The notes under the pieces were generated by a model. It saw nothing but the letters and a program-made list of their open reading frames with translations, did not search any database and had not been told where the DNA came from. Of a DNA stretch of 64,000 bases, positions 11,999 to 57,979 are shown piece after piece (the stretch's first letter is position 1; every line of letters starts with the position of its first letter). The translations under genes and the position numbers were made by a program. Source of the stretch: Patescibacteria group bacterium (GTDB lineage Bacteria > Patescibacteriota > Microgenomatia > UBA1406 > GWC2-37-13); contig BPJC01000001.1 of NCBI GenBank assembly GCA_026004415.1, positions 62,001 to 126,000 of the forward strand, read 5' to 3'.

Positions 11999-12116
<118 letters not shown>

Positions 12117-32698: not shown

Positions 32699-32735
32699 CA
32701 AGCACTTTAAAAGTTTGGTATTGAACAAAGAAAGA

Positions 32736-35690
<2,955 letters not shown>

Positions 35691-38698: not shown

Positions 38699-39890
38699 TT
38701 ATAATTCCAATGTTTCCTCTAGGTGAGACAAGAAATTTTTAAAAAATTTGCCTGTATTTTGGTTATTTAAAAAATTTAGAGGAGAAGAACAAATAGATAA
38801 GAAAAAATTGATTTCCTCTGAGGTAAAAAATTCTCGAATTTTCTCGTTTGTTATGTCACCTAAAATAAGTGGTTGAAAAATGAAATTATTTAATACTTTA
38901 TAAATCATTTTGTGCCTATAATATTCCCAAGTTTCTTTTGGAATATTACTACAGGCAAAATCTAATAATTCAGATTCATCTTCTCTTATAACATTGAATC
39001 TTCCATTTGTAGAAAAACCTTCGGGGAAATAAGAGTTTTTACAATTATTTATAATTTCAAATAATTCTCTCCGCCTGTTTTTTATTACTTTACACTGCAT
39101 AGGAGCTATTTTATAACCACACTGCCTAATTCTATTTCCTAAATTATTCACTTCGCTTAATTTAATTCTACCACTTGGATCATATTCTTGTTTTATTCCC
39201 TTCCCATGGGCATAGGCAACTGCCGTAAAAGCACTATTAGGGCCTGACATTTTAATTAATACAATCCTATTTTTCTCAAAAAACTCTATTAAAGATGGAA
39301 TGATATTGAAGTAATGTTTAATTCCAGTGGCCCTTTCTATTTTTTCTTCTATTTCTTTTGAGGCCTCGTGGGTGCCAGCTAAGCACCCAATTTGAGGTCG
39401 GCTAAAACCATTAGCGATTTTTTCTAACCACTCTTTTGGTGGAATAGTATCTGCATCTGTTACTGCCAAAATATGGTGAAATTCTACATTTCTTTCGAAA
39501 AGTCTTTGTAAAACATTGTCCATACCTGTTTTTCTAGCAGTAGAAACACCTGGAACAGACTCCTCGATTAAATACAAGGGATAATTGGCTTGTTTTTTTA
39601 AAGTTTTCTATCTCTCTTATGGTCTCATCGGTACTTCCATTATCGACAACTACTAGCTCAAAAGCGCGATAAGATTGTTCATTAAAGGCTCGCAGACATC
39701 TTGTAATTATTTTTGCCTCATTGTAAGCAGGGATTACAACACTTACTTTCGTTTTTGGGTCTAAAGGATAGTTTGTTAATTGATAGTTACAATTATATTT
39801 TTCTAAATAATCCTTAATAACGATTTTAGGTGGATTATTTTTTAAAGAAGAAATTTTGTGTTTTGCCTGCTGTAACATTGTTTTTTTCAT
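38699..39890 (-). pseudogene. Family 2 glycosyltransferase, single frameshift
   Basis: The first frame from 39890 gives VSVVIPAYNEAKIITRCLRA and LVVVDNGSTDETIREIEN. Near 39580 the frame shifts to YLIEESVPGVSTARKTGMDNV, and DADTIPPKEWLEKIANGF supplies the DxD motif. The downstream 290 codons are open. The start overlaps the polyprenyl synthetase end, so both belonged to one operon. Unlike the intact GT2 at 30442-31149 it has a long C-terminal region. Confidence 0.82.
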
Positions 39891-46795: not shown

Positions 46796-47713
46796 ATGCC
46801 AATATTTTCAATTAAGCAAAATAAACTAGAACGAATAAAAGAAATCTCTTTTAAAAATGAAAAAGAAATTCAAAAAATAACTGAATCTAACCTGCAAAAA
46901 ATATTCAATTTGGATTTTGTAAAGTCTGAAGTCTCTTTGGGAAATTTAAGAATAGACACTCTCGCATTTGATGAGGAAACGAAATCTTTTGTAGTTATTG
47001 AATATAAAAAGGATAAAAATTTTAGTGTAATAGATCAAGGATATGCTTATCTTGCTTTATTATTAAATAACAAAGCTGATTTTATTCTCAAATACAATGA
47101 ATGTAAAAATAAAATTTTAAAAAAAGGAGATATAGACTGGTCGCAATCAAAAGTCATTTTTATTTCTCCACAATTTACAAAATATCAAAAACAAGCAATA
47201 AATTTTAAAGATCTACCCATAGAACTTTGGGAAATTAATAAATATGAAAACAACACAGTGCTTTTTAATCAACTTAAATCTCCTGAAACAAGCGAATCCA
47301 TAACTAAGATAAGCTCAAAAAGTGACCTTGTTCAAAAAATTAATAGAGAAATAAAGGTGTACACAGAAGAAGATCATCTTCAGGGAATACCAAATAATAT
47401 TGTAGAAATTTATGAAGAATTAAAAGAAAGAATTTTAAATTTAGGAGATAACGTTGAGATTCTACCTAGAAAACACTATATTGGTTTTATTGCAAATACA
47501 AATTTTGCAGATATTCATCCCCAAAAATCACAGATTAAAATTTGGATTAATTTAAACAAAGGAGAATTAAATGATACAAAAAATTTGGCGAGAGATGTTT
47601 CCAAAATAGGACACTGGGGCAATGGTGATTACGAAATAGTCATAAAATCTAACTCAAATTTAGATTACATAATGACTTTAATAAAACAATCCTACAAAAA
47701 ACACTCTTTCTAA
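46796..47713 (+). CDS. PD-(D/E)XK-type nuclease-like protein with DUF5655 domain
   Basis: 305 aa, intact. The N-terminal half has the nuclease core [28 protein letters not shown], giving the Asp...Glu-x-Lys triad of the PD-(D/E)XK fold (DUF91-like). The C-terminal part ([28 protein letters not shown]...[17 protein letters not shown]...[12 protein letters not shown]) matches DUF5655. A DNA-processing or defence role is plausible. It stands alone among pseudogenes. Confidence 0.75.
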
Positions 47714-48083: not shown

Positions 48084-48834
48084 TCAAGTGCTTTTGTCAA
48101 TTCCGCTTTCAGCAATTATTCTTCTTGCCTTATTTTTTGTAAGCTTCTTGGAATAAACTAGTCTCGCATACTTTATTATTCCTTCCATCAGAGAATTTTT
48201 AACAAGTTGTTTTTCGTTTTGGTAAATATATTGGCTTAAAAAAACGGCCAAAATTTTTGGTTTTTATCTGATCAGGAAGTCTGATTAAATCAATAACAAA
48301 AGAATTTGTCTTTGGCTTTGGATAAAATTTTTCCTTAGTAACTTCAAAAAGAACTTTTGGTTTAAAAAATGAAGCAAAAATAGCATTTTTCTCAATGCTT
48401 TTCAAAAATTTAACAGGAATCATAAGAATAACTTTGTCATATGCAACAAAGGTCAAGTTATGAAAAAACGGCTCAATAAAAGAATAAGGCAGATTGGAAA
48501 CTACTTTGTTGTACTCTTTCCTTTTGAAAAATTTTCCGCGGAGTTGAACAAAATCTCAAGCACTTTTAAAATGGACTTCAACATTTTGAGGCAGTTTTGC
48601 TAAAAAGGGTTTAAACCGTTCATCAATCTCAAAAGCAATTACTTTTCCTGATCTTTTCGTTAATTCGCTAGTTAGATTGCCAATCCCTGCTCCAATTTCC
48701 AAAACAACATCATTTTTGTTCAAATCAGCAAAACTAACCATTTTTTTAATAACTCTATAATCAGCTAAGAAAAACTGATCCTTTAATGGATCTGGTTCTA
48801 TTCTGTGTTTTTTAAGAAGTGTTTTTATAGCCAT
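48084..48834 (-). pseudogene. rRNA adenine dimethyltransferase (KsgA/Erm family), broken
   Basis: From 48834: MAIKTLLKKHRIEPDPLKDQ, motif I as NDVVLEIGAGIGNLTSELTK, KVIAFEIDERFKPFL, then a TGA (48556-48558). The same frame resumes LRGKFFKRKEYNKVVSNLPY, the NLPY catalytic motif, and runs on to KPIYLPKR at about 48215. A frameshift then leads into the C-terminal helical part ending near 48084. One nonsense codon and one indel. If this was the only RsmA copy, 16S dimethylation is lost; Erm-like 23S methylation is the alternative. Confidence 0.8.
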
Positions 48835-49224: not shown

Positions 49225-49902
49225 TTAGTTTTCTTTATAAAATTCAAAAGGAAGATTTCTTGCTAAAACATATGCTACTGGAATAAAGTCATTATGCGAG
49301 AGAATACCCCGATTAAAGCATTCAGGGACCCTAATACCTTTGATATGATTTAGCGGATATTCTAGAGGGTTAATATTTGTTACTGTAGTTTGTTGCTGTT
49401 TATGCATTAATCTCAAAACACAGTCAGAATTAAGTGATCTTAAAATGTTATCAGTATAGTTAGTTTCACAAATTACTTCTGGATATTGGTGGGATGGTTC
49501 GCCTCTAGCTAAACTCCCAACAGTTAAAAGTCTGGCTTGGATTATAGGTAAGTTACTTAAATTAAGTAGTTTTTCATCATCATATGCATAATCTAACTTT
49601 ATTATTAAATCTGGATAATAAAAATATGATTGTAGATATGAAATAACTTTCTTTGCTTTTTCAAACAACTCTTGCAATATCTTATATTCATGTATACCAT
49701 TTGAGTCACCGCCAATCAAAGCTCCCTTTTCATTAAGACCAAAACTCCAAGCACCTCTTGGAGGCAGAGCTGAATGGGCGATATCAAAAATATAATAAGG
49801 TTCTTGATTTTGATTATAATCATTAATAATACTTATATATCCAACAAATTCTGGACCGGCGACTGCTTCTTGGTTAACATTAGAAGTCTTAAAAAAAATC
49901 AA
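49225..49902 (-). CDS. Hypothetical protein, possibly N-terminally truncated
   Basis: 225 aa from TTG 49902. In the same frame an ATG at 49977 (with a TAGAAT -10-like box upstream) gives MITAINLEKKIELQGVTQTN, then a TAG at 49908-49906. The original protein was therefore probably about 250 aa and is now interrupted or restarted. The region LIIKLDYAYDDEKLLNLSNLPIIQARLL loosely recalls the end of the PEP-synthase ATP-binding domain (LQAR), but this is weak. No signal peptide. Confidence 0.45.
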   Translation of the reverse strand: MIFFKTSNVNQEAVAGPEFVGYISIINDYNQNQEPYYIFDIAHSALPPRGAWSFGLNEKGALIGGDSNGIHEYKILQELFEKAKKVISYLQSYFYYPDLIIKLDYAYDDEKLLNLSNLPIIQARLLTVGSLARGEPSHQYPEVICETNYTDNILRSLNSDCVLRLMHKQQQTTVTNINPLEYPLNHIKGIRVPECFNRGILSHNDFIPVAYVLARNLPFEFYKEN

Positions 49903-50077
49903 ATGCTAATAAGGATAATTTGTTTGTGTAACACCTTGTAATTCTATCTTTTTTTCTAAATTTATTGCTGTTATCATGTGCCTTTTTATTCTATTTTGAA
50001 GATATAAAAACTATTTAAGTAAGGTGAGATAATAAATAATAGCTAATTTAATAGCTAAAAATTTTTGATTAACAAAG

Positions 50078-50290
50078 ATGAAATGCCTAAATTGTGAAAC
50101 CCAAATGGTTAAAGGAGTTATTATAAAGGGTGGTTGGTATGGAGAAACATTTGCAAAACTTAATAAATTTGCCGTAGAAAAATTAAATTTCGGAAGATTC
50201 GTTTCAGCTTATAGGTGACCAAAATGTGTCAAAATTGAACTTTATGCCGATCCGGATTGAAACAGTAAGGACTGGCAAAATCTAAGGTAA
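50078..50290 (+). pseudogene. Small zinc-ribbon protein with two in-frame TGA codons
   Basis: One 70-codon frame: MKCLNCETQMVKGVIIKGGW, FGRFVSAYR, TGA (50216-50218), PKCVKIELYADPD, TGA (50258-50260), NSKDWQNLR. The first Cys pair CLNC is intact. The second pair would be CPKC, so the first TGA replaces Cys, and the second probably replaces Trp. Confidence 0.65.
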
Positions 50291-50293
50291 GCT

Positions 50294-51088
50294 TTAGCAG
50301 GCTATCCCATCGCCTATTCCAACTGCATCTAAATTCATAGGATCATAATACTTTGTAAAACCACAGCAGATGAAAAACTCTTGAGCCTTTGCTTGGGTTT
50401 TAAAGTCCTTGCAGTCTCTATCAGGACCGTTGCAGTCATATTTACAGTTTCTGCTTCCTAAAACCTTTTTTTCCTTACAAGCCTGAGGATCCCACAAACC
50501 TTTGTTTTTCTCTCTTGCTTGCCTTTCAGCCTGCAAAAACCTTTCCTGATATTTTACATCCGGCGGAAAACTCACAGCCTTAGCATAACCTTCCCTTACC
50601 AAATACTCATTTACAAAAATATCTTCCACATAAACATACCTTAAAAGCCTTCCGTATTTGTCTCTTTCAGAAACATCCTTTTCCAACTTAACCTTTTTCC
50701 CTAAAACTAGTCTCTCATTTGCCTTTTTTGCTTCAAGCGCAAAACACTCTGGATCACCCCTTTCTGTATTCAGCTCCGGAGTATCAATGCCAATATATCT
50801 CACCTTCTCTCCATTCTCCAAAACAATCGTATCGCCATCGATTACTTCAACTACTTTATAAAACTCTTGAAAGGGTGTTGGGTTAACTTTATTTTTTACA
50901 ATAGAAGAAGGAGTAGAACTCAAAGTAATTGAAATCTTCTGATATTCTGTTTCTTTTAAGATATTATTACTTTGATAGTCATTTTTTCTGCTGAATAAAA
51001 CAAGAGTAAAGAAAATAACTCCTATAAAAATCAAGAAGGCTTTTTTGCGTTTGAAAAAATTAGCTAATTTAGCGCTTATCATATACAA
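50294..51088 (-). CDS. Secreted thermonuclease (SNase) with Excalibur-like C-terminus
   Basis: 264 aa. A basic N-terminus and membrane helix (about 16-30) export it. The staphylococcal-nuclease domain has YKVVEVIDGDTIVLENGEKVRYIGIDTPE, DKYGRLLRYVYVEDIFVNEYLVREGYA and an ERDKYGR Arg. The C-terminal DRDCKDFKTQAKAQEFFICCGF...DAVGIGDGIAC is an Excalibur-type calcium-binding motif. It likely degrades external DNA or RNA for nucleotides, which suits a CPR lifestyle. Confidence 0.92.
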   Translation of the reverse strand: MYMISAKLANFFKRKKAFLIFIGVIFFTLVLFSRKNDYQSNNILKETEYQKISITLSSTPSSIVKNKVNPTPFQEFYKVVEVIDGDTIVLENGEKVRYIGIDTPELNTERGDPECFALEAKKANERLVLGKKVKLEKDVSERDKYGRLLRYVYVEDIFVNEYLVREGYAKAVSFPPDVKYQERFLQAERQAREKNKGLWDPQACKEKKVLGSRNCKYDCNGPDRDCKDFKTQAKAQEFFICCGFTKYYDPMNLDAVGIGDGIAC

Positions 51089-51156
51089 ATTTAACTTTAG
51101 ACCAAAATCGTCTAATAAAAGTATAAACTAAAAGAGATCATTTAAAAGGAATGTAG

Positions 51157-51714
51157 TTATCTATTGACTTCTTTCCACCATTCTTAAGGATCTGATTTTA
51201 AAATCTCTTTAAATAACTTTTTTCCTGATTTTGTGCAGAGTTTTTTGCTGAGATTTTCCAACCATTGTTCCGCTTGCTTATGACCTTGCTGAATATACTC
51301 TTTAGCATTTAAAGCATTTTCAAGATAATCAGCATCTTTTAGGATCTTCCCAAAAAGACCTTTCTTTTCATTTAAATCTCTCATCCACTCTACAACCTCT
51401 GGCAGAAAGTCCTTTGCCTGATCTTCAATTGCTTTGTCTTCGTTACCCTTTGGGGCAGATATTTTCTGCTTAACAAAGTTAAGTCTCCAATTCTTGTCTC
51501 TCCGATCTCATGAAAAACAAGGGCAGTTGCTACTTTTTCAGGATTAGGATATCCTTCTAATTTTGCCAAGATATATCCAATCTGGGCAGTTCTTAAAGAA
51601 TGTTCGGCGATTGTTTCAGGATCTTTAATGCCAATATAAAGCCAGCCTGCTTAGGAAGAGTTTTTAAACTTTCCCATTCATAAAGCCTTTTAATTATTTT
51701 TTAAGATCTAACAT
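51157..51714 (-). pseudogene. HD-domain nucleotidase (YfbR-like), broken
   Basis: Fragments in order: AGWLYIGIKDPETIAEHSLRTAQIGYILAKLEGYPNPEKVATALVFHEIGETRIGDL (the H...HE metal motif), QKISAPKGNEDKAIEDQAKD, KILKDADYLENALNAKEYIQ (the distal Asp), then TAA and EWWKEVNR. The N-terminus is scrambled by indels and a shift occurs near 51475. The open 66-codon piece at 51184-51384 is only its C-terminal part. Confidence 0.78.
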
Positions 51715-51718
51715 AATT

Positions 51719-52288
51719 TTATTTTACTTTATTTTTTAAGTACCTTCCCATTAACTCTCCCTTAGCCAGAATATGACCATCAATAGCTCTTAAAAGTTCT
51801 TTTCTTCCTACAGAAGGATCAAGTTCTAAAACAGTATCAAGAGTATAAACCTTAAAAAAGTATCTATGCTCTCCAGAGGGCGGACAAGGCCCACCATAAG
51901 AGTTTTCGCCAAAATCATTTCTGCCAACAACCGCATCTTCAGGCATAGAGTTTTCTGCGATTTTTCCTACAGAAGGGCTAATATTCCAGACCAGCCAATG
52001 AGAAAAAGTTCCCATAGGCGCATCAGGATCATCAACAATCAAAACCAAACTTTTTGCCTCCTGAGGTACTCCGCTTATTTCAAGGTCAGGATTTATATTT
52101 TCTCCATCGCAGGTGTATCTGGAAGGAATCAAGCTTCCGTTTTCAAAAGCAGAACTTGTAACTTTTAGAGTATGTTTAACCTCCATAGTATTTTGTTTGA
52201 AATTATAACTGGTTCTGCTTTTCCAAAAATAAAATGAGAAAATTGCGAGAAACAATATTATGCCTCCAATTAAAACACTAAATCGCAT
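51719..52288 (-). CDS. YbhB/YbcL-family PEBP-like protein, membrane anchored
   Basis: 189 aa: an N-terminal helix (about 5-22), then the PEBP domain with SRYTCDGENINPDLEISGVPQEAKSLVLIVDDPDAPMGTFSHWLVWNI and YGGPCPPSGEHRYFFKVYTLD, the two ligand-pocket motifs. Bacterial members have no agreed function. Divergent from the gene at 52345. Confidence 0.9.
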   Translation of the reverse strand: MRFSVLIGGIILFLAIFSFYFWKSRTSYNFKQNTMEVKHTLKVTSSAFENGSLIPSRYTCDGENINPDLEISGVPQEAKSLVLIVDDPDAPMGTFSHWLVWNISPSVGKIAENSMPEDAVVGRNDFGENSYGGPCPPSGEHRYFFKVYTLDTVLELDPSVGRKELLRAIDGHILAKGELMGRYLKNKVK

Positions 52289-52344
52289 CTTACTTAAATT
52301 TTAACAAACTAAACAAAAATCAGAGTTTGCTACAATGAAAATTG

Positions 52345-53037
52345 ATGGAAAAAGGAATCCTTAAAATCTTTCTTTTTCTTTCATTTATAGGCTTTGCTCT
52401 TTTTGTAATTAAATTACTTTTCGACAAACCGCCGGTGATAAAATCTCTTTTTGTTATAAAGGAGGATCTGGCTCAAGATTCAGGATACTCCTCAGAGTAT
52501 GGGCCAGTTTTACCCTTTGGAACAATCTTAAAAGGAGAAGGAAAAGAAACTCTTTCACCCACTATAGAGTTTTATCTTAAAAAGGAGGCTTTAGTTTACA
52601 GCCCAATAGATGGAACAATCACAGAAATAAGATATCAACCAGAGGATAAAGATTACTATATCTGGATAAAGCCAAGATTTTGGTCTGACTGGCTTGTTGA
52701 GATCGATCATCTTACAGCTCTTCAAGTAAAAAAAGGAGAAAAAGTTTCCGCAGGCCAGGTGCTTGGAAAACCCGGCAGATGGTATCCAGAATATGGTGTA
52801 GGAAGAGTAGAGTTAATGATAATTAAAGAAGGAAGACTAGATCATTACTTTTGCCCCTCGCTTTTTTTAGCAAAAGAAGTGAAAAGAGATTACGATGAAT
52901 TCTTTAGCTATGCCTTCAAAGATTCAACAAGAAAAGAAGAACTGCAAAAGATGAATCCTTTAGGCTGTTTGTTTAAAGAATTAAAGGATAAAACAGTAAT
53001 CATCAAAAATCATCAAAATCTAATTGTTGTCAATTAG
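52345..53037 (+). CDS. Membrane-anchored M23-like fold protein without metal ligands
   Basis: 230 aa from ATG 52345; TACAAT at 52331-52336 lies 8 bases upstream. One N-terminal helix, then beta-rich sequence VYSPIDGTITEIRYQPEDKDYYIWIKP...VEIDHLTALQVKKGEKVSAGQVLGKPG, as in LytM/M23 or lipoyl-like folds. The HxxxD and HxH zinc ligands are not evident. The C-terminal end GCLFKELKDKTV is duplicated at 54210-54284. Confidence 0.6.
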   Translation: MEKGILKIFLFLSFIGFALFVIKLLFDKPPVIKSLFVIKEDLAQDSGYSSEYGPVLPFGTILKGEGKETLSPTIEFYLKKEALVYSPIDGTITEIRYQPEDKDYYIWIKPRFWSDWLVEIDHLTALQVKKGEKVSAGQVLGKPGRWYPEYGVGRVELMIIKEGRLDHYFCPSLFLAKEVKRDYDEFFSYAFKDSTRKEELQKMNPLGCLFKELKDKTVIIKNHQNLIVVN

Positions 53038-53108
53038 GCACAAAAAAATAAGATATTAACCTTTTACTTACCAACCCCAATTATTTATCTTTATTACTAC
53101 TCATTAAT

Positions 53109-53270
53109 TCAGAAATTCAGATCATCTTCATTTGGGATTAACTTGTCTTTATCTTCTTTATCTTTTTTATTCGGGATTAACTTGTCTTTATCTTTATAAT
53201 TCAGATCATCTTCCTTCGGGATTAAATTGTCTTTATTTGGATATAATTCGGGCATTATTTTTTCTGCCAT
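53109..53270 (-). CDS. Short Asp/Lys-rich repeat peptide with strong ribosome-binding site
   Basis: 53 aa from ATG 53270: MAEKIMPELYPNKDNLIPKE, then units around KDKLIPN and EDDLN (KDNLIPKEDDLN, DKDKLIPNKKDKE, DKDKLIPNEDDLN). No signal peptide, no Cys, highly charged, probably disordered. AAAGGAGGTGA at 53279-53289 is a near-perfect Shine-Dalgarno, unlike the leaderless genes elsewhere, and decides the start. Its promoter and 5' leader resemble those of the peptide at 53774-54106. Not recognised. Confidence 0.65.
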   Translation of the reverse strand: MAEKIMPELYPNKDNLIPKEDDLNYKDKDKLIPNKKDKEDKDKLIPNEDDLNF

Positions 53271-53322
53271 GTAAAATCTCACCTCCTTTCTTTCTATAGT
53301 ATTTTTAAATTTATAAAAACAA

Positions 53323-53351
53323 ATTATATCATTATAATCACATCTGCACAA
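53323..53351 (-). promoter_or_regulatory. Promoter TTGTGC-17-TATAAT of the 53-aa repeat peptide
   Basis: -35 TTGTGC (53351-53346), 17-base spacer, -10 TATAAT (53328-53323). A second TATAAT lies at 53336-53331. The predicted 5' leader is about 46 bases. Confidence 0.55.
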
Positions 53352-53354
53352 CAA

Positions 53355-53773
53355 AAATACCCTTTTAAAACATATTGAAACGCAGAGGATGAATCATCTA
53401 AACTTTTTTCAAAAAATTTAAGATTAGAAGCTAAAGCTAACCGTCATCAACTTATCGCAAAATTTTAACCTTCATTTCTACAATATGATACTTTCAAATA
53501 TTTCTATCAATTGCTTAAAAAATAAACCCTAATTTTGTGGCCCAATTTCTACTATTTATCTCAATTTATCCTTACCTGCTTTGCAACTTTGTTATTAGTT
53601 TTTTTAACTACTTTCCGTCTTAAGTAATCCCGATTCTCTTTTCTTTTAGGTTTTATGTTCTCTTTTCCTTGTTCTACTTCAAATCAGGCGATTTTTTAGG
53701 TGGGATAGGATTTTTTTCTCTTCTCTTAACGCGTCAGGGCTTATCACTTCCTCTTCTCTTAACTTACCAGGAC
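53355..53773 (-). other. Intergenic with a former repeat tract
   Basis: At 53690-53770 the minus strand, out of frame with the upstream peptide gene, reads SPDAISPGKLREEEVISPDAL and REEKK, with the repeated units CCTGACGCG and TTAAGAGAAGAG in the DNA. It looks like a third repeat type that once extended the 53774-54106 protein before a frameshift. The rest is unremarkable. Confidence 0.4.
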
Positions 53774-54106
53774 TTATCGCGTCAGGCTATCCTTTTTATA
53801 TTTCATGTTATTGTTCAGATCAGGCGGTCTTAAAGGGTTTTCAGGATATTGCACATCAGGCTGTTCTAAAGGGTTTTTAGGATATTTCACATCAGGCTGT
53901 CCTTTATTTATTTCATTGTTATTGTTCAGATCAGGCTGTCCTTTATTTATTCTATTATTATTGTTCAGATCAGGCTGTCCTTTATTTATTTCATTGTTAT
54001 TGTTCAGATCAGGCTGTCCTAAAGGGTTTTCAGGATATTGCACATCAGGCTGTCCTTTATTTATTTCATTGTTATTTTTTACAGGCTGGCTGATTTCACC
54101 TTCCAT
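53774..54106 (-). CDS. Asn/Gln/Pro-rich tandem-repeat protein with strong ribosome-binding site
   Basis: 110 aa from ATG 54106 (a GTG three codons earlier overlaps the ribosome-binding site). After MEGEISQPVKNNNEI it is made of two interleaved units: a 13-residue NEINKGQPDLNNN (39-base DNA repeat, three copies) and a 12-residue GQPDVQYPENPL (36 bases, three variants), sharing the QPD core. It is disordered, with no signal peptide and no Cys. AAAGGGGGGTGAA precedes it. The frame ends abruptly in KKDSLTR where a further repeat tract is now out of frame. Confidence 0.65.
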   Translation of the reverse strand: MEGEISQPVKNNNEINKGQPDVQYPENPLGQPDLNNNNEINKGQPDLNNNNRINKGQPDLNNNNEINKGQPDVKYPKNPLEQPDVQYPENPLRPPDLNNNMKYKKDSLTR

Positions 54107-54165
54107 AAATTTCACCCCCCTTTCTAAACAATCAATAAAATTTAAACTTATTTTTTGTTTTTAAT

Positions 54166-54194
54166 ATTTTACAATACGGAAAAATTACAGTCAA
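54166..54194 (-). promoter_or_regulatory. Promoter TTGACT-17-TAAAAT of the tandem-repeat protein
   Basis: -35 TTGACT (54194-54189), 17-base spacer, -10 TAAAAT (54171-54166). The predicted leader is about 53 bases and ends in the strong Shine-Dalgarno. This is the best full sigma-70 promoter in the window. Confidence 0.6.
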
Positions 54195-54209
54195 GGCTAT
54201 AAAAGATTT

Positions 54210-54284
54210 AGTCTTTTAGGCTGTTTGTTTAGAGAATTAAAGGATAAAATAGCTGACCATCAGGTGTTGATGGTTGTAAATTAA
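54210..54284 (+). pseudogene. Duplicated C-terminal fragment of the 52345-53037 gene
   Basis: Reads LLGCLFRELKDKIADHQVLM, VVN and stop. The first 38 bases are almost identical to the end of the upstream gene, with one change. No start is present. The two copies flank the pair of repeat-peptide genes. Confidence 0.7.
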
Positions 54285-54336
54285 GACCTTTAAGTTTTAG
54301 GCATCTTTGCAAAAACAGATTCATTTTTTGTCTTAT

Positions 54337-54909
54337 TTATATTATCTCAAATACATCATTTTTTCTTATTCTTGGTTTTTTGTCAGATTCTAAAATGTCA
54401 TTTGGAGCTTTAGCATAGTCTCCTAATTTTCCCAATGCTATCATTACCCAAGGTTGATGATTTTCGTCAACTAGTTTTTTTGCTTTATCTTTGTTGAATC
54501 CTCCCATCTGATGTGTGTAATAGTCCAAAATCTGTGCTTGATAAACCAAGGTTGCCACAGCCTGACCTAAATCATACTGAGCATAGGCGTTTTCTCCATA
54601 ATCATCTTTGTTTATATAACAACCTAATATTAGCACTCCTGCGTTTTTAGCCCATAAATTGCCTTGCATAAGCAGTGAAGATAGTTTTTCAAATCCTTTA
54701 GATCCATTCTTAGCTACATAAAAATACCAGGGCTGGCGGTTATAGCTTGATGGTGTCCAACGAACTGCTTCAAAAATAATTTTGAGGTCATCATCTGAAA
54801 TGTTGCTGTTAACAAAGAATTTAGGACTAAATCTTTTTTTAAAGCAATCAGAAATACTTAATGATGTTTTGTTTTCGTGTATTTTTAGGATGTCTTGATT
54901 TTTAAACAT
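54337..54909 (-). CDS. Nitroreductase-family FMN oxidoreductase
   Basis: 190 aa. KKRFSPKFFVNSNISDDDLKIIFEAVRWTPSSYNRQPWYFYV is the FMN phosphate-binding start. YAQYDLGQAVATLVYQAQIL and the C-terminal WVMIALGKLGDYAKAP complete the fold. Likely a dimeric NAD(P)H-dependent reductase of unknown substrate. Divergent from the peroxiredoxin gene, so the pair could form a redox-stress neighbourhood. Confidence 0.9.
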   Translation of the reverse strand: MFKNQDILKIHENKTSLSISDCFKKRFSPKFFVNSNISDDDLKIIFEAVRWTPSSYNRQPWYFYVAKNGSKGFEKLSSLLMQGNLWAKNAGVLILGCYINKDDYGENAYAQYDLGQAVATLVYQAQILDYYTHQMGGFNKDKAKKLVDENHQPWVMIALGKLGDYAKAPNDILESDKKPRIRKNDVFEII

Positions 54910-54961
54910 ATAAAACTTATACTTAATTTGTAATAGTTATTATAATTTATCAAAGAAAATT

Positions 54962-55426
54962 ATGAAAGCAATAGATTTTTTATTACCGGATCAAGACAAT
55001 AATTTTCATTCATTGAAGGATTACAATGGTAAATGGGTGCTATTATATTTTTACCCTAAAGACAATACTCCAGGTTGCACTAAAGAAGCCTGTGGTTTTA
55101 GAGATAGTTTTGAAGAACTAAAAAAACATAATGTAGTTGTATTAGGTGTTTCTGCTGATTCTGTTTCATCTCATAAAAAGTTTGCTGAAAAGTTTAAATT
55201 AAATTTCCCTTTGTTATCTGATACTTCAAAAGAGATTATTAAAAAGTATGAGGCTTGGGGTAAGAAAAGGTTTATGGGTAGAGAGTTTGAGGGTATTTTG
55301 CGAATTAGTTATCTTATAAACCCTGAAGGTAAGGTTGTTAAAAAGTATGATAAAGTTAAACCTGAGGTTCATGCCAAAGAGGTTCTAGATGACATAAATA
55401 AGTTTAAGTCTGACAAAAAAGATTGA
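54962..55426 (+). CDS. bcp: Thiol peroxidase Bcp (peroxiredoxin Q)
   Basis: 154 aa. WVLLYFYPKDNTPGCTKEACGFRDSF holds the peroxidatic and resolving Cys five residues apart, as in Bcp. VLGVSADSVSSHKKFAEKFKLNFPLLSD is also typical. It reduces hydroperoxides using thioredoxin. TATAAT at 54941-54946 lies 15 bases before the ATG. Confidence 0.95.
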   Translation: MKAIDFLLPDQDNNFHSLKDYNGKWVLLYFYPKDNTPGCTKEACGFRDSFEELKKHNVVVLGVSADSVSSHKKFAEKFKLNFPLLSDTSKEIIKKYEAWGKKRFMGREFEGILRISYLINPEGKVVKKYDKVKPEVHAKEVLDDINKFKSDKKD

Positions 55427-55427
55427 T

Positions 55428-55583
55428 ATGACTGCAAAAACCACATTAAACAAGATAAAGTACGCAAATAGATTATTGCCTACACAGAATTGTCCAATGT
55501 GCGGCAGTAAAATCTCTGCTTTGCCTGGAACTAGAGATGCTGTTTGCAAAAACTGCGGTTTTAAAGATCCTTGTTGTGAATAA
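55428..55583 (+). CDS. 51-aa zinc-ribbon protein
   Basis: MTAKTTLNKIKYANRLLP, then CPMCGSKI and CKNCGFKDPCCE. Two CxxC pairs form a zinc ribbon, and the end carries two more Cys. It starts one base after the bcp stop, so it is co-transcribed with the peroxiredoxin. Too short for standard gene callers but with good coding character. Confidence 0.7.
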   Translation: MTAKTTLNKIKYANRLLPTQNCPMCGSKISALPGTRDAVCKNCGFKDPCCE

Positions 55584-55745
55584 CTTGCTTTAGTATTACT
55601 TGTTGTTTTTATAGTTGAAGGTTCTCTCCTCATCAGCATTTGTTATGATTTGTCTATAATTTGGTTTTGAAAATAATTGTTGAAACACTGGCAATGTTGT
55701 TTTGTTGTATTAAATCTTTTGATCAGGATAATAAGTTTTTAGAGA

Positions 55746-57272
55746 TTATTTTCTTATTCTTCCTCCAATAATCCTTGGTTTTTTAATATCTTGAAATCCT
55801 TTTGTTTGTGTTTTTTCTATTCCGTTCTTGTCAATGTTTTGTTCTTTGAACTTTGGGCTCTGATTATTAGTTATTTCACCTGTATTGGTTTGTTTACTTG
55901 GAGTAAAGATAATGTTGGCTGTTGAACCATTTGCTCCAGTGCCTATCAACTGAATGCTCTTGATTTGTCCATTAGTATTGCCTAAGGCTTCAATAATTGC
56001 GGCTGTTATAAGATAAGATGCTGGAGTTTTCCCAGACATAGCATCTTTGACTGCAAGTGAGACACTCTGCGCTCCATCTTCTGTCTCTATAAGAATCATC
56101 CATACAGCATCCTTGGTATATTTATAATCATTATGAAGTTTGTGTTCAATTTCATTAGTTAAATTTATAATGGTTTGAATTATTAAGTCGAAATCTCTTA
56201 GACTATAAAGGTTTGGTTTTTTAACTTTTTCAATTAAGATTCTAATTTGGTTAGTTATATCAATAAAGTCATTGTTTAATTGTTCTGCTGTTGCTATCTG
56301 AATTATTAGACCATCATAGGGTGGTTTGTCTAATATTTTTTGTAGTTCTTCTCCTCTGATTATTGTTATCTTGTTATTGCCAAGATACATAAATACTGGA
56401 GGAGAGTCTGGGTTGTCAAGGTCTCCTTCATACTCTGAATAAGTGATTATTTTTCCATTTCGGATTTCAAAAATTCCGGTGGCTGGTATTGCATCGTTGT
56501 TTGGTGTTATATCACCGTAGTATAAAGGTGAGCCTTTGTACTCTTCTTCTAATTCAGGTCTTGGTTTGTTCCAACCAAAGCCAAATGTTATTTGTGTACC
56601 ATCTATGGTAAGTGCAATAGCCGCGGCGTTAGTATGCGCTGTAAAAGGATTGGTCCCAATTTGAAATAAGTCGCCTTTGCGTCTTTGATCAGGGTCTGGT
56701 ACAGCTAAATAAATATTGGGAGACGCAGAGCGTCCTGTCATTTGTTCAGGTAAAAGAAGTTCAGGTGTCCATTCTTTTAATTTAAAAGATGCTATCTGTA
56801 CTTTGCCTCTGTTTGTAGAGTCTGTGTATTCAGTTATTATAATTTCTGGAGGTATCCAATCTGGTTTGCCTTCTGCAGTAGCAATTTTTTGAAAAGCGTT
56901 AGTAAAGGGTAGGTCGTCGGGAAAGGGTTTTGAGAGATAATCTCCTCTTGTTTTTTCAAAATAATCTATAAATGTTTCTGTTGGGTTTTGAGGCAATCTA
57001 TTAGATGCCTGAATTATTCTATGTATAAGTTCATTGGCTTCAGGATCTACTTCTAATTCCTTATAAATCTGGTTTAGAGATTTTTTCAATATTTCTCCTA
57101 ATACAGTGTCTGAGAAATTTCTTTCTCCTGTTATGGGATCGTATGGAGCTGTGTGTTGATTGGCAAAATTTAGGCTAATTAGCACTAAGGCTAAGCAGAG
57201 AAGTCTTTTAAGTTTTTCTCGTATTTCTTTTTTTTGTTTGTCTTTTGGTTGATGTTTAGGCTGTTCAATCAT
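55746..57272 (-). CDS. Large hypothetical protein with N-terminal membrane anchor
   Basis: 508 aa. The basic N-terminus and helix (about 23-39, LLCLALVLISLNFA) place the rest outside the membrane. The long soluble part is beta-rich early (IIITEYTDSTNRGKVQIASFKLKEW) and helical later (LRDFDLIIQTIINLTNEIEHKL), with a disordered basic C-terminus (PRIIGGRIRK). A PTGERNF-like ITGERNFSDTVLGEIL segment follows the anchor. No known family was recognised. Its region 55584-55745 downstream is empty. Confidence 0.6.
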   Translation of the reverse strand: MIEQPKHQPKDKQKKEIREKLKRLLCLALVLISLNFANQHTAPYDPITGERNFSDTVLGEILKKSLNQIYKELEVDPEANELIHRIIQASNRLPQNPTETFIDYFEKTRGDYLSKPFPDDLPFTNAFQKIATAEGKPDWIPPEIIITEYTDSTNRGKVQIASFKLKEWTPELLLPEQMTGRSASPNIYLAVPDPDQRRKGDLFQIGTNPFTAHTNAAAIALTIDGTQITFGFGWNKPRPELEEEYKGSPLYYGDITPNNDAIPATGIFEIRNGKIITYSEYEGDLDNPDSPPVFMYLGNNKITIIRGEELQKILDKPPYDGLIIQIATAEQLNNDFIDITNQIRILIEKVKKPNLYSLRDFDLIIQTIINLTNEIEHKLHNDYKYTKDAVWMILIETEDGAQSVSLAVKDAMSGKTPASYLITAAIIEALGNTNGQIKSIQLIGTGANGSTANIIFTPSKQTNTGEITNNQSPKFKEQNIDKNGIEKTQTKGFQDIKKPRIIGGRIRK

Positions 57273-57361
57273 TTTTGTATTTTAATAACTTTGTTTTAAA
57301 TAATATCTTATTTTTAACAAAACAGCAGATGCAGTTATATTAAAAATGTTAAGATATTAAA

Positions 57362-57979
57362 ATGTTAAAAATATTTTTGGCAAGGCATGCTCAAGATCAG
57401 GATAATGCTTTAGATATTATCAATGGATTAAGAGACTTGCCGTTGAGTAGTTTAGGAGTTTTGCAGGCCAAAAAGTTAGCTCGGTTTTTTTTGAAAAAGC
57501 AGTTGAGGTTTAATAAAGTTTATGCATCACCGCTTGTAAGAGCCAAGCAAACAGCAGATATTATCTCTAGTTTTAGTTTTCAGGTAGAGTATGAAGTTTT
57601 GGATTTGTTAATTGAAAGAGATTTTGGTATTTTGACAGGAAAATCTAGATTTGATATACCAAAATATTGTAAAAAAACAGAGTTTATTAAAAACAACAAT
57701 GGATATTTCTTTTTCAATTGCGGATCTGCTGAAAGTATTGATTCAGTAGCTGAAAGAGCTAGATTGGTAATTTCTTATTTAAATCAAAGATTTAATGACG
57801 GCATGGTTTTGTTAGTTTCACACGGTGTTTTTGCGCAAGTTTTTTACAGTGTTTATTACCAAATTCCATTAGAGCAGGTGGTTAAAAAGATTCATCTTAA
57901 CAACACTGATGTTCTTTTGTTTCAAGATCCTAACAAAGAGCCCGCAAACCCATTTTATTATAAATCTTCTTTGTTTTGA
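57362..57979 (+). CDS. Histidine phosphatase superfamily protein
   Basis: 205 aa. The catalytic motif is ARHAQDQDN (RHA instead of RHG), with SPLVRAKQTADII, the acidic LLIERDFGILTGKS, and the second His in LLVSHGVFAQVF. It is a phosphatase or mutase-like enzyme related to CobC/PhoE. Unlike the mutase at 2541, both active-site His residues are present. Confidence 0.9.
   Translation: MLKIFLARHAQDQDNALDIINGLRDLPLSSLGVLQAKKLARFFLKKQLRFNKVYASPLVRAKQTADIISSFSFQVEYEVLDLLIERDFGILTGKSRFDIPKYCKKTEFIKNNNGYFFFNCGSAESIDSVAERARLVISYLNQRFNDGMVLLVSHGVFAQVFYSVYYQIPLEQVVKKIHLNNTDVLLFQDPNKEPANPFYYKSSLF

Follow-up and report, generated by a model that had tools for sequence, protein, structure and literature searches.

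Two small repeat-peptide genes with exceptionally strong Shine-Dalgarno sites in a Patescibacteria genome

Two adjacent small genes of a Patescibacteria group bacterium, here called A and B, encode peptides built from tandem units and are preceded by Shine-Dalgarno (SD) sites whose calculated duplex energies lie far beyond those of the reference ORFs of the genome, in which most gene starts look leaderless. After weighing the sequence evidence, we hold with moderate confidence that both are genuine protein genes, young and specific to their lineage, whose repeat-expanded products would be abundant, cytosolic and disordered and may act by bulk or multivalency.

Repeat genes and their initiation signals

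Both genes are located on the minus strand of the window (the 64,000-nucleotide stretch of DNA that was analysed), with A as the downstream neighbour of B. Gene A (53109..53270), for which we chose the SD-preceded ATG as the start, encodes a 53-aa repeat peptide, MAEKIMPELYPN...KDKLIPNEDDLNF, with the units KDKLIPN and EDDLN. Gene B (53774..54106) encodes a 110-aa repeat peptide in which the N-terminus MEGEISQPVKN is followed by units of GQPDLNNNNEINK (13 aa) and GQPDVQYPENPL (12 aa). The original prediction of two small adjacent repeat ORFs, together with the units that it named, was borne out by the ORFs, the codon table and the TRF scores, which were 153 for A (39-bp period, 2.9 copies) and 270-314 for the arrays of B. 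The repeat units measure 36 or 39 nt and keep one frame in the codon table. In the 464 kb of genome that we read, comprising the window and 20 further stretches, other arrays with a period of at least 15 scored no higher than 78, and no higher than 86 when the loci of six relatives were added, with the same 357-bp array at a contig start as the exception in both cases. That array (start of G000:C2, L071:1-4641) consists of 13 perfect consecutive copies of a unit whose product we take to be a GIY-YIG-like protein; ARAGORN found zero tRNA in it, and it may be a true tandem array or an assembly artefact. The repeat fraction was 0.72 for A and 0.84 for B, and all 85 other strong-SD ORFs had lower values, the highest being 0.55.

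The SD site of A is the full 10-nt AAGGAGGTGA (53279..53288, minus strand), 8 nt from the ATG, and that of B is AGGGGGGTGA (54112..54121, minus strand), 5 nt from the ATG. SD strength was calculated as the energy of the RNA duplex between the 22 nt upstream of a start and the anti-SD tail, for which we used a presumed sequence. The resulting values, -20.5 kcal/mol for A and -16.9 kcal/mol for B, were matched by 0/328 reference ORFs (ATG-started, at least 150 aa), among which the best energy was -10.9 and the median -1.5. Both genes were assigned to a strong-SD class on the basis of this distance from the reference ORFs, and the earlier description of their SD sites as near-perfect was thereby strengthened.

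We then asked which other genes share this class. Genome-wide, the pattern AAAGGRGGTGA ahead of an ATG was found at eight places, or seven without the copy of A on a second contig, C12, and the reversed pattern used as a control was found at none. Besides A, these places belong to HU, Hsp20, two S20 proteins, a glyoxalase-like protein and one secreted protein, presumably DUF2680-like; L7/L12 of this genome has a comparable SD site. The duplex energies of the named genes range from -16.8 to -20.5 kcal/mol, and the genes are absent from the 328 reference ORFs because all of them are shorter than 150 aa. When the search was extended to 72 genomes of the family, an SD pattern of slightly greater length occurred at 125 places in 56 genomes, compared with 2 for the reversed control. 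We read 90 of the 125 loci and by eye put 28 of them into six families: HU (6), DUF5679 (6), RRM (5), DUF3276 (5), Hsp20 (4) and L7/L12 (2). One protein per family (two for HU) was checked against Pfam, and the checked Hsp20, L7/L12 and one HU came from the window's own genome. No A- or B-like peptide was present among the other 89 loci read. The original prediction had called the A and B products highly made; membership of an SD class common to HU, Hsp20, S20 and L7/L12 supports this part indirectly and suggests that the products are probably made in quantity. The two S20 genes (G000:C7:6304 and G000:C9:12012) are different genes of one assembly, each with a strong SD, and may be paralogues or may indicate a contig of a second organism. 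Literature titles and abstract beginnings yielded nothing about this locus or about how the group uses SD sites.

The promoters of A and B are unremarkable and average for the genome. Gene B is preceded by the promoter-like site TTGACT-17-TAAAAT (54166..54194, minus strand; score 10/12) and gene A by TTGTGC-17-TATAAT (53323..53351, minus strand; 9/12), which has a good -10 and a poor -35. Within 120 nt, a score of at least 9 is reached in 203/323 genes and one of at least 10 in 61/323, and the special status that had been claimed for these promoters was not confirmed. The leaders had been estimated at about 50 nt, in agreement with the distance from the end of the -10 hexamer to the ATG (52 nt for A and 59 nt for B).

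That most starts in this genome look leaderless was also supported. SD 4-mers were present 4-13 nt ahead of the start in 8% of the 328 ORFs compared with 13% of 291 internal-ATG controls. Additionally, -10-like hexamers peaked 6-9 nt before the ATG (7.9, 4.0, 6.4 and 5.8% per position), whereas most other positions showed about 1-3% and the internal-ATG controls 0-1.4%. Together, the scarcity of SD 4-mers and the -10-like peak near the ATG support mostly leaderless-looking starts, with the strict-match peak accounting for only about a quarter of genes and some reference starts being wrong because first-ATG starts were used. Taken as a whole, the 464-kb sample describes a mostly leaderless-looking genome with a few full-SD small genes, in which internal ATGs are preceded by SD motifs more often than gene starts are.

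Both peptides are acidic (pI 4.7 and 4.9), very hydrophilic (GRAVY -1.5 and -1.7) and free of Cys and Trp. Ser/Thr residues number three in B and none in A, and glycine accounts for 0% of A and 5.5% of B. AlphaFold2, run on single sequences, returned a mean pLDDT of 54.9 and zero secondary structure for B and a mean pLDDT of 65.2 with short helices for A; low confidence obtained without an alignment is weak evidence, but it is in line with the composition and suggests that both peptides are disordered. No Pfam family, LEA included, matched either peptide at the cut-off of E 0.001, and at E 1 or better just two sub-threshold hits appeared, both to B (E 0.047 and 0.22). A PHROG hit to B (E 9e-4) was rejected, as it covered 9 low-complexity residues.

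Repeat decay and genomic surroundings

The repeats of B continue past its stop. The unit runs across the stop codon with 44/49 nt matching and a one-base deletion, after which PDAISPGKLREEEVISPDALREE and then NPIPPKKSPDLK are read in successive frames, followed by a stretch of 40 open codons, rich in Lys and Arg and in the frame of B itself (53564..53683, minus strand), which may be a former C-terminus. By frames and unit alignment, this decayed continuation spans 53677..53786 (minus strand), with PDAISPGKLREEEVISPDALREEKK in one frame and then NPIPPKKSPDLK in the next. The tract reads best as a lost, decayed C-terminal part of B. An out-of-frame SPDAL/REE tract had been described here as a third repeat type; the tract is present, but the 44/49-nt match makes it better understood as the continuation of B. 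Sequencing error as the sole cause was discounted: when the lost base is restored, a TAA and a TAG remain, and contig C12, which may share reads with the window contig, agrees.

C12 (G000:C12; 7535 bases) is 99.93% identical to window positions 49870-57400, with 5 mismatches and no gaps; it is a redundant near-identical contig, likely from a strain variant that the assembler retained. Its only difference within B is synonymous. No length variation was seen because C12, a single near-identical contig, has the same repeat number. Between the copies of the B units (three full units of each type; partial units left out), we counted 1 synonymous and 5 nonsynonymous nucleotide differences, where the expected synonymous share is 0.21. 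The probability of at most one synonymous change among six is 0.64, a comparison of little power, and thus no codon-level constraint is visible.

An intact M23-type gene (52342-53037) and a nitroreductase gene adjoin the pair. A second copy of the M23 3' end (54201-54262), which matches 52946-53005 within the intact gene at 85% over 62 bp, stands beside B's promoter, so that A and B lie between the intact gene and the remnant of its duplicate. From the DNA match and the frame read from the sequence, the remnant (54201..54284, plus strand) comprises a C-terminal tail, LGCLFRELKDKIADHQVLMVVN, whose frame runs uninterrupted up to a stop of its own at 54284, and it is located a few bases from B's -35 site. 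The flanking M23 protein had no confirmed match in the contig scan and, among 6 genomes, was found in its own genome only; a 508-aa protein was found in its own genome only, among 2, and neither protein gave an outside anchor. ORF cover falls from 0.94 in 0-31 kb to 0.54 in 36-52 kb, and it is 0.83 in 52-64 kb. The pair adjoins the stretch of low coding density, which contains broken genes, in a variable and decay-prone part of the chromosome. In the parts of a genus mate (G001) that were compared, matches to the window end near 31 kb and start again at about 58.5 kb, the point at which contig C4 of the mate ends. These parts were a 10-kb terminal piece of C4, the initial 20 kb of each of seven contigs, an inner and a terminal 20 kb of C5 and the terminal 20 kb of C3, with the ends of C1, C2, C6 and C7 outside the comparison.

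Several other features of the window were recorded. A glycosyltransferase-like gene (38699-39890, minus strand) and another gene (51184-51569, minus strand) look frameshift-split, and positions 46796-47713 (plus strand) strongly match the PADLOC candidate defence family PDC-S18 (E 3.6e-137). The rRNA genes are unlinked (23S at 32733-35689, plus strand; 5S at 12000-12114, minus strand), and upstream of the 23S there is no 16S, only tRNA-Ala.

The main rival explanation, which we regard as possible but doubtful, treats the two genes as neutral remnants left from a larger repeat gene or an imported cassette, decaying with their initiation signals kept and their products idle. It draws on the loss of frame beyond B's stop, the M23 tail adjoining B's promoter, the drop in ORF cover between 0-31 kb and 36-52 kb and the absence of visible codon constraint. 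The genome's only ksgA-type match over the cut-off (PF00398; window 48199-48834, minus strand) is also damaged: an in-frame stop interrupts it, and its parts lie in different frames. However, both ORFs are open and have intact top-class SD sites, which two adjacent decaying genes would both have had to retain, and the single change that separates the two contigs within B is synonymous. The decay next to B and the broken genes around it nevertheless allow that the locus as a whole is dying.

Searches for relatives and the relation between A and B

Homologues of B were sought outside its own genome in 37 relatives and in 83 genomes of the order, and none was found; the same result was obtained in one contig scan of 84,980 species and in viral contigs, phages and plasmids. 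For A, no homologue was found outside its own genome in 372 genomes of the class or in viral contigs. These searches used exact peptide words or filtered tblastn, which are weak for low-complexity repeats, and some of the searched collections may lack the window's own record. At the DNA level, the locus gave one 48-base plasmid match (E 0.009) among phages and plasmids, which appears chance-like. A DNA match to the leader of A (G000:C3:131090; 85%, 40 bases) was set aside as an AT-rich chance match within an ordinary gene region.

A and B are not demonstrably related to each other. Their alignment score was reached by 1620/2000 shuffles, and the leader of A resembles that of B no more closely than it does 29/29 other strong-SD leaders; therefore, one family comprising A and B is unproven. 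With no further member found, the proposal of a fast-evolving repeat-protein family did not hold. The original prediction had also made its case depend on homologues and on codon-level constraint: no homologue was found, and no constraint is visible, as far as six differences can tell. Overall, what had been observed was partly confirmed, and its interpretation was partly supported.

Proposed role and comparison with known systems

We propose that each of A and B arose by in-frame duplication of a 36-39-nt unit behind a strong initiation signal and that the 3' part of B later decayed via a frameshift and nonsense changes. The products would be abundant cytosolic, acidic and disordered peptides. 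Judging from composition alone, the peptides would most likely act by bulk and multivalency rather than catalysis, with many weak copies of a Pro-Asp/Glu...Leu/Asn motif binding or shielding a common partner, or with the peptides crowding and hydrating the cytoplasm. This bulk or multivalent role is the weakest step of the model. Selection would be weak on sequence and strong on expression. Against this reading, we count the absence of codon constraint, the average promoters and the lack of length variation in C12.

A more far-reaching proposal, which we consider unlikely, is that in a bacterial lineage whose genes mostly start without an SD site, the full SD serves as a dedicated high-output switch for a few small abundant proteins and that two newborn, fold-free repeat genes acquired this switch. 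The result would be an abundant disordered peptide layer, multivalent or protective, that evolves by repeat turnover and not by point-sequence conservation. If A and B are made in quantity, they would be a clear example of orphan repeat genes that joined the strongest initiation class of a reduced genome as soon as they arose. Regardless of A and B, the contrast between an SD-poor genome and a few full-SD small genes offers a simple way to predict from sequence which proteins of uncultured bacteria are abundant, and such predictions can be checked against metaproteomes.

Other functions fit the data less well. Repeated short units after a short non-repeated N-terminus, with nitroreductase and M23-type genes adjoining, would suit multi-core precursors of a natural product that is made on the ribosome and then modified, with the repeats serving as cores and spacers. 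We think this very unlikely: Cys is absent and Ser/Thr are nearly so, and Pfam detected no typical modifying enzyme among 17 flanking ORFs in 36-58 kb, a scan with broken genes and small ORFs outside it. Moreover, the nitroreductase belongs with a peroxiredoxin pair, because the two genes are adjacent in 5/6 relatives' loci read. It is slightly less probable still that the RNA or DNA repeat is functional, as a structured RNA or regulatory array, and not the peptide. The leader of A does fold better than shuffles (z -2.8; -1.8 for B), but zero Rfam families reached threshold, each unit length is divisible by three and an SD site leads the reading frame. We give least credence to putative mimicry of the SSB C-terminal tip by peptide A to bind SSB partners, since the likeness of its end EDDLNF (53109-53126, minus strand) to the DDDIPF end of an ORF of this genome that we take to be SSB is probably chance, A lacks the Pro ahead of the last Phe, its internal copy EDDLNY is not C-terminal, and B has no such end.

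Compared with known systems, our preferred reading of A and B as abundant disordered peptides finds partial parallels. Hydrophilins are defined by more than 6% glycine together with high hydrophilicity. Like hydrophilins and LEA-like stress proteins, A and B are small, very hydrophilic, disordered by prediction and repeat-built, but the glycine content of each is below the 6% of the hydrophilin definition, and neither matches LEA in Pfam at the threshold used. With multi-core RiPP precursors, A and B share short peptides and repeated units, and differ in lacking the common modification residues and any modifying enzyme seen nearby.

The amino-acid tandem-repeat (aaTR) proteins of Borg elements are described as having in-frame tandem units, almost no Cys, little Phe, disorder and recently formed repeats, and short linear motifs are proposed for them (PMC9879509). 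A and B resemble them in these features, with the disorder predicted and the linear motifs proposed, and the tandem units within their ORFs have lengths divisible by three (36 and 39 nt). Borg aaTRs are perfect repeats inside otherwise conserved proteins (PMC9879509), whereas the copies in A and B differ and no homologue was found; in A and B, moreover, the whole protein is repeat, the genes are chromosomal in a bacterium and the SD is strong. The closest likeness in initiation is to HU, Hsp20, L7/L12 and S20, whose SD sites are equally exceptional in this SD-poor genome; those proteins are conserved and folded, whereas A and B are orphans that are predicted to be disordered.
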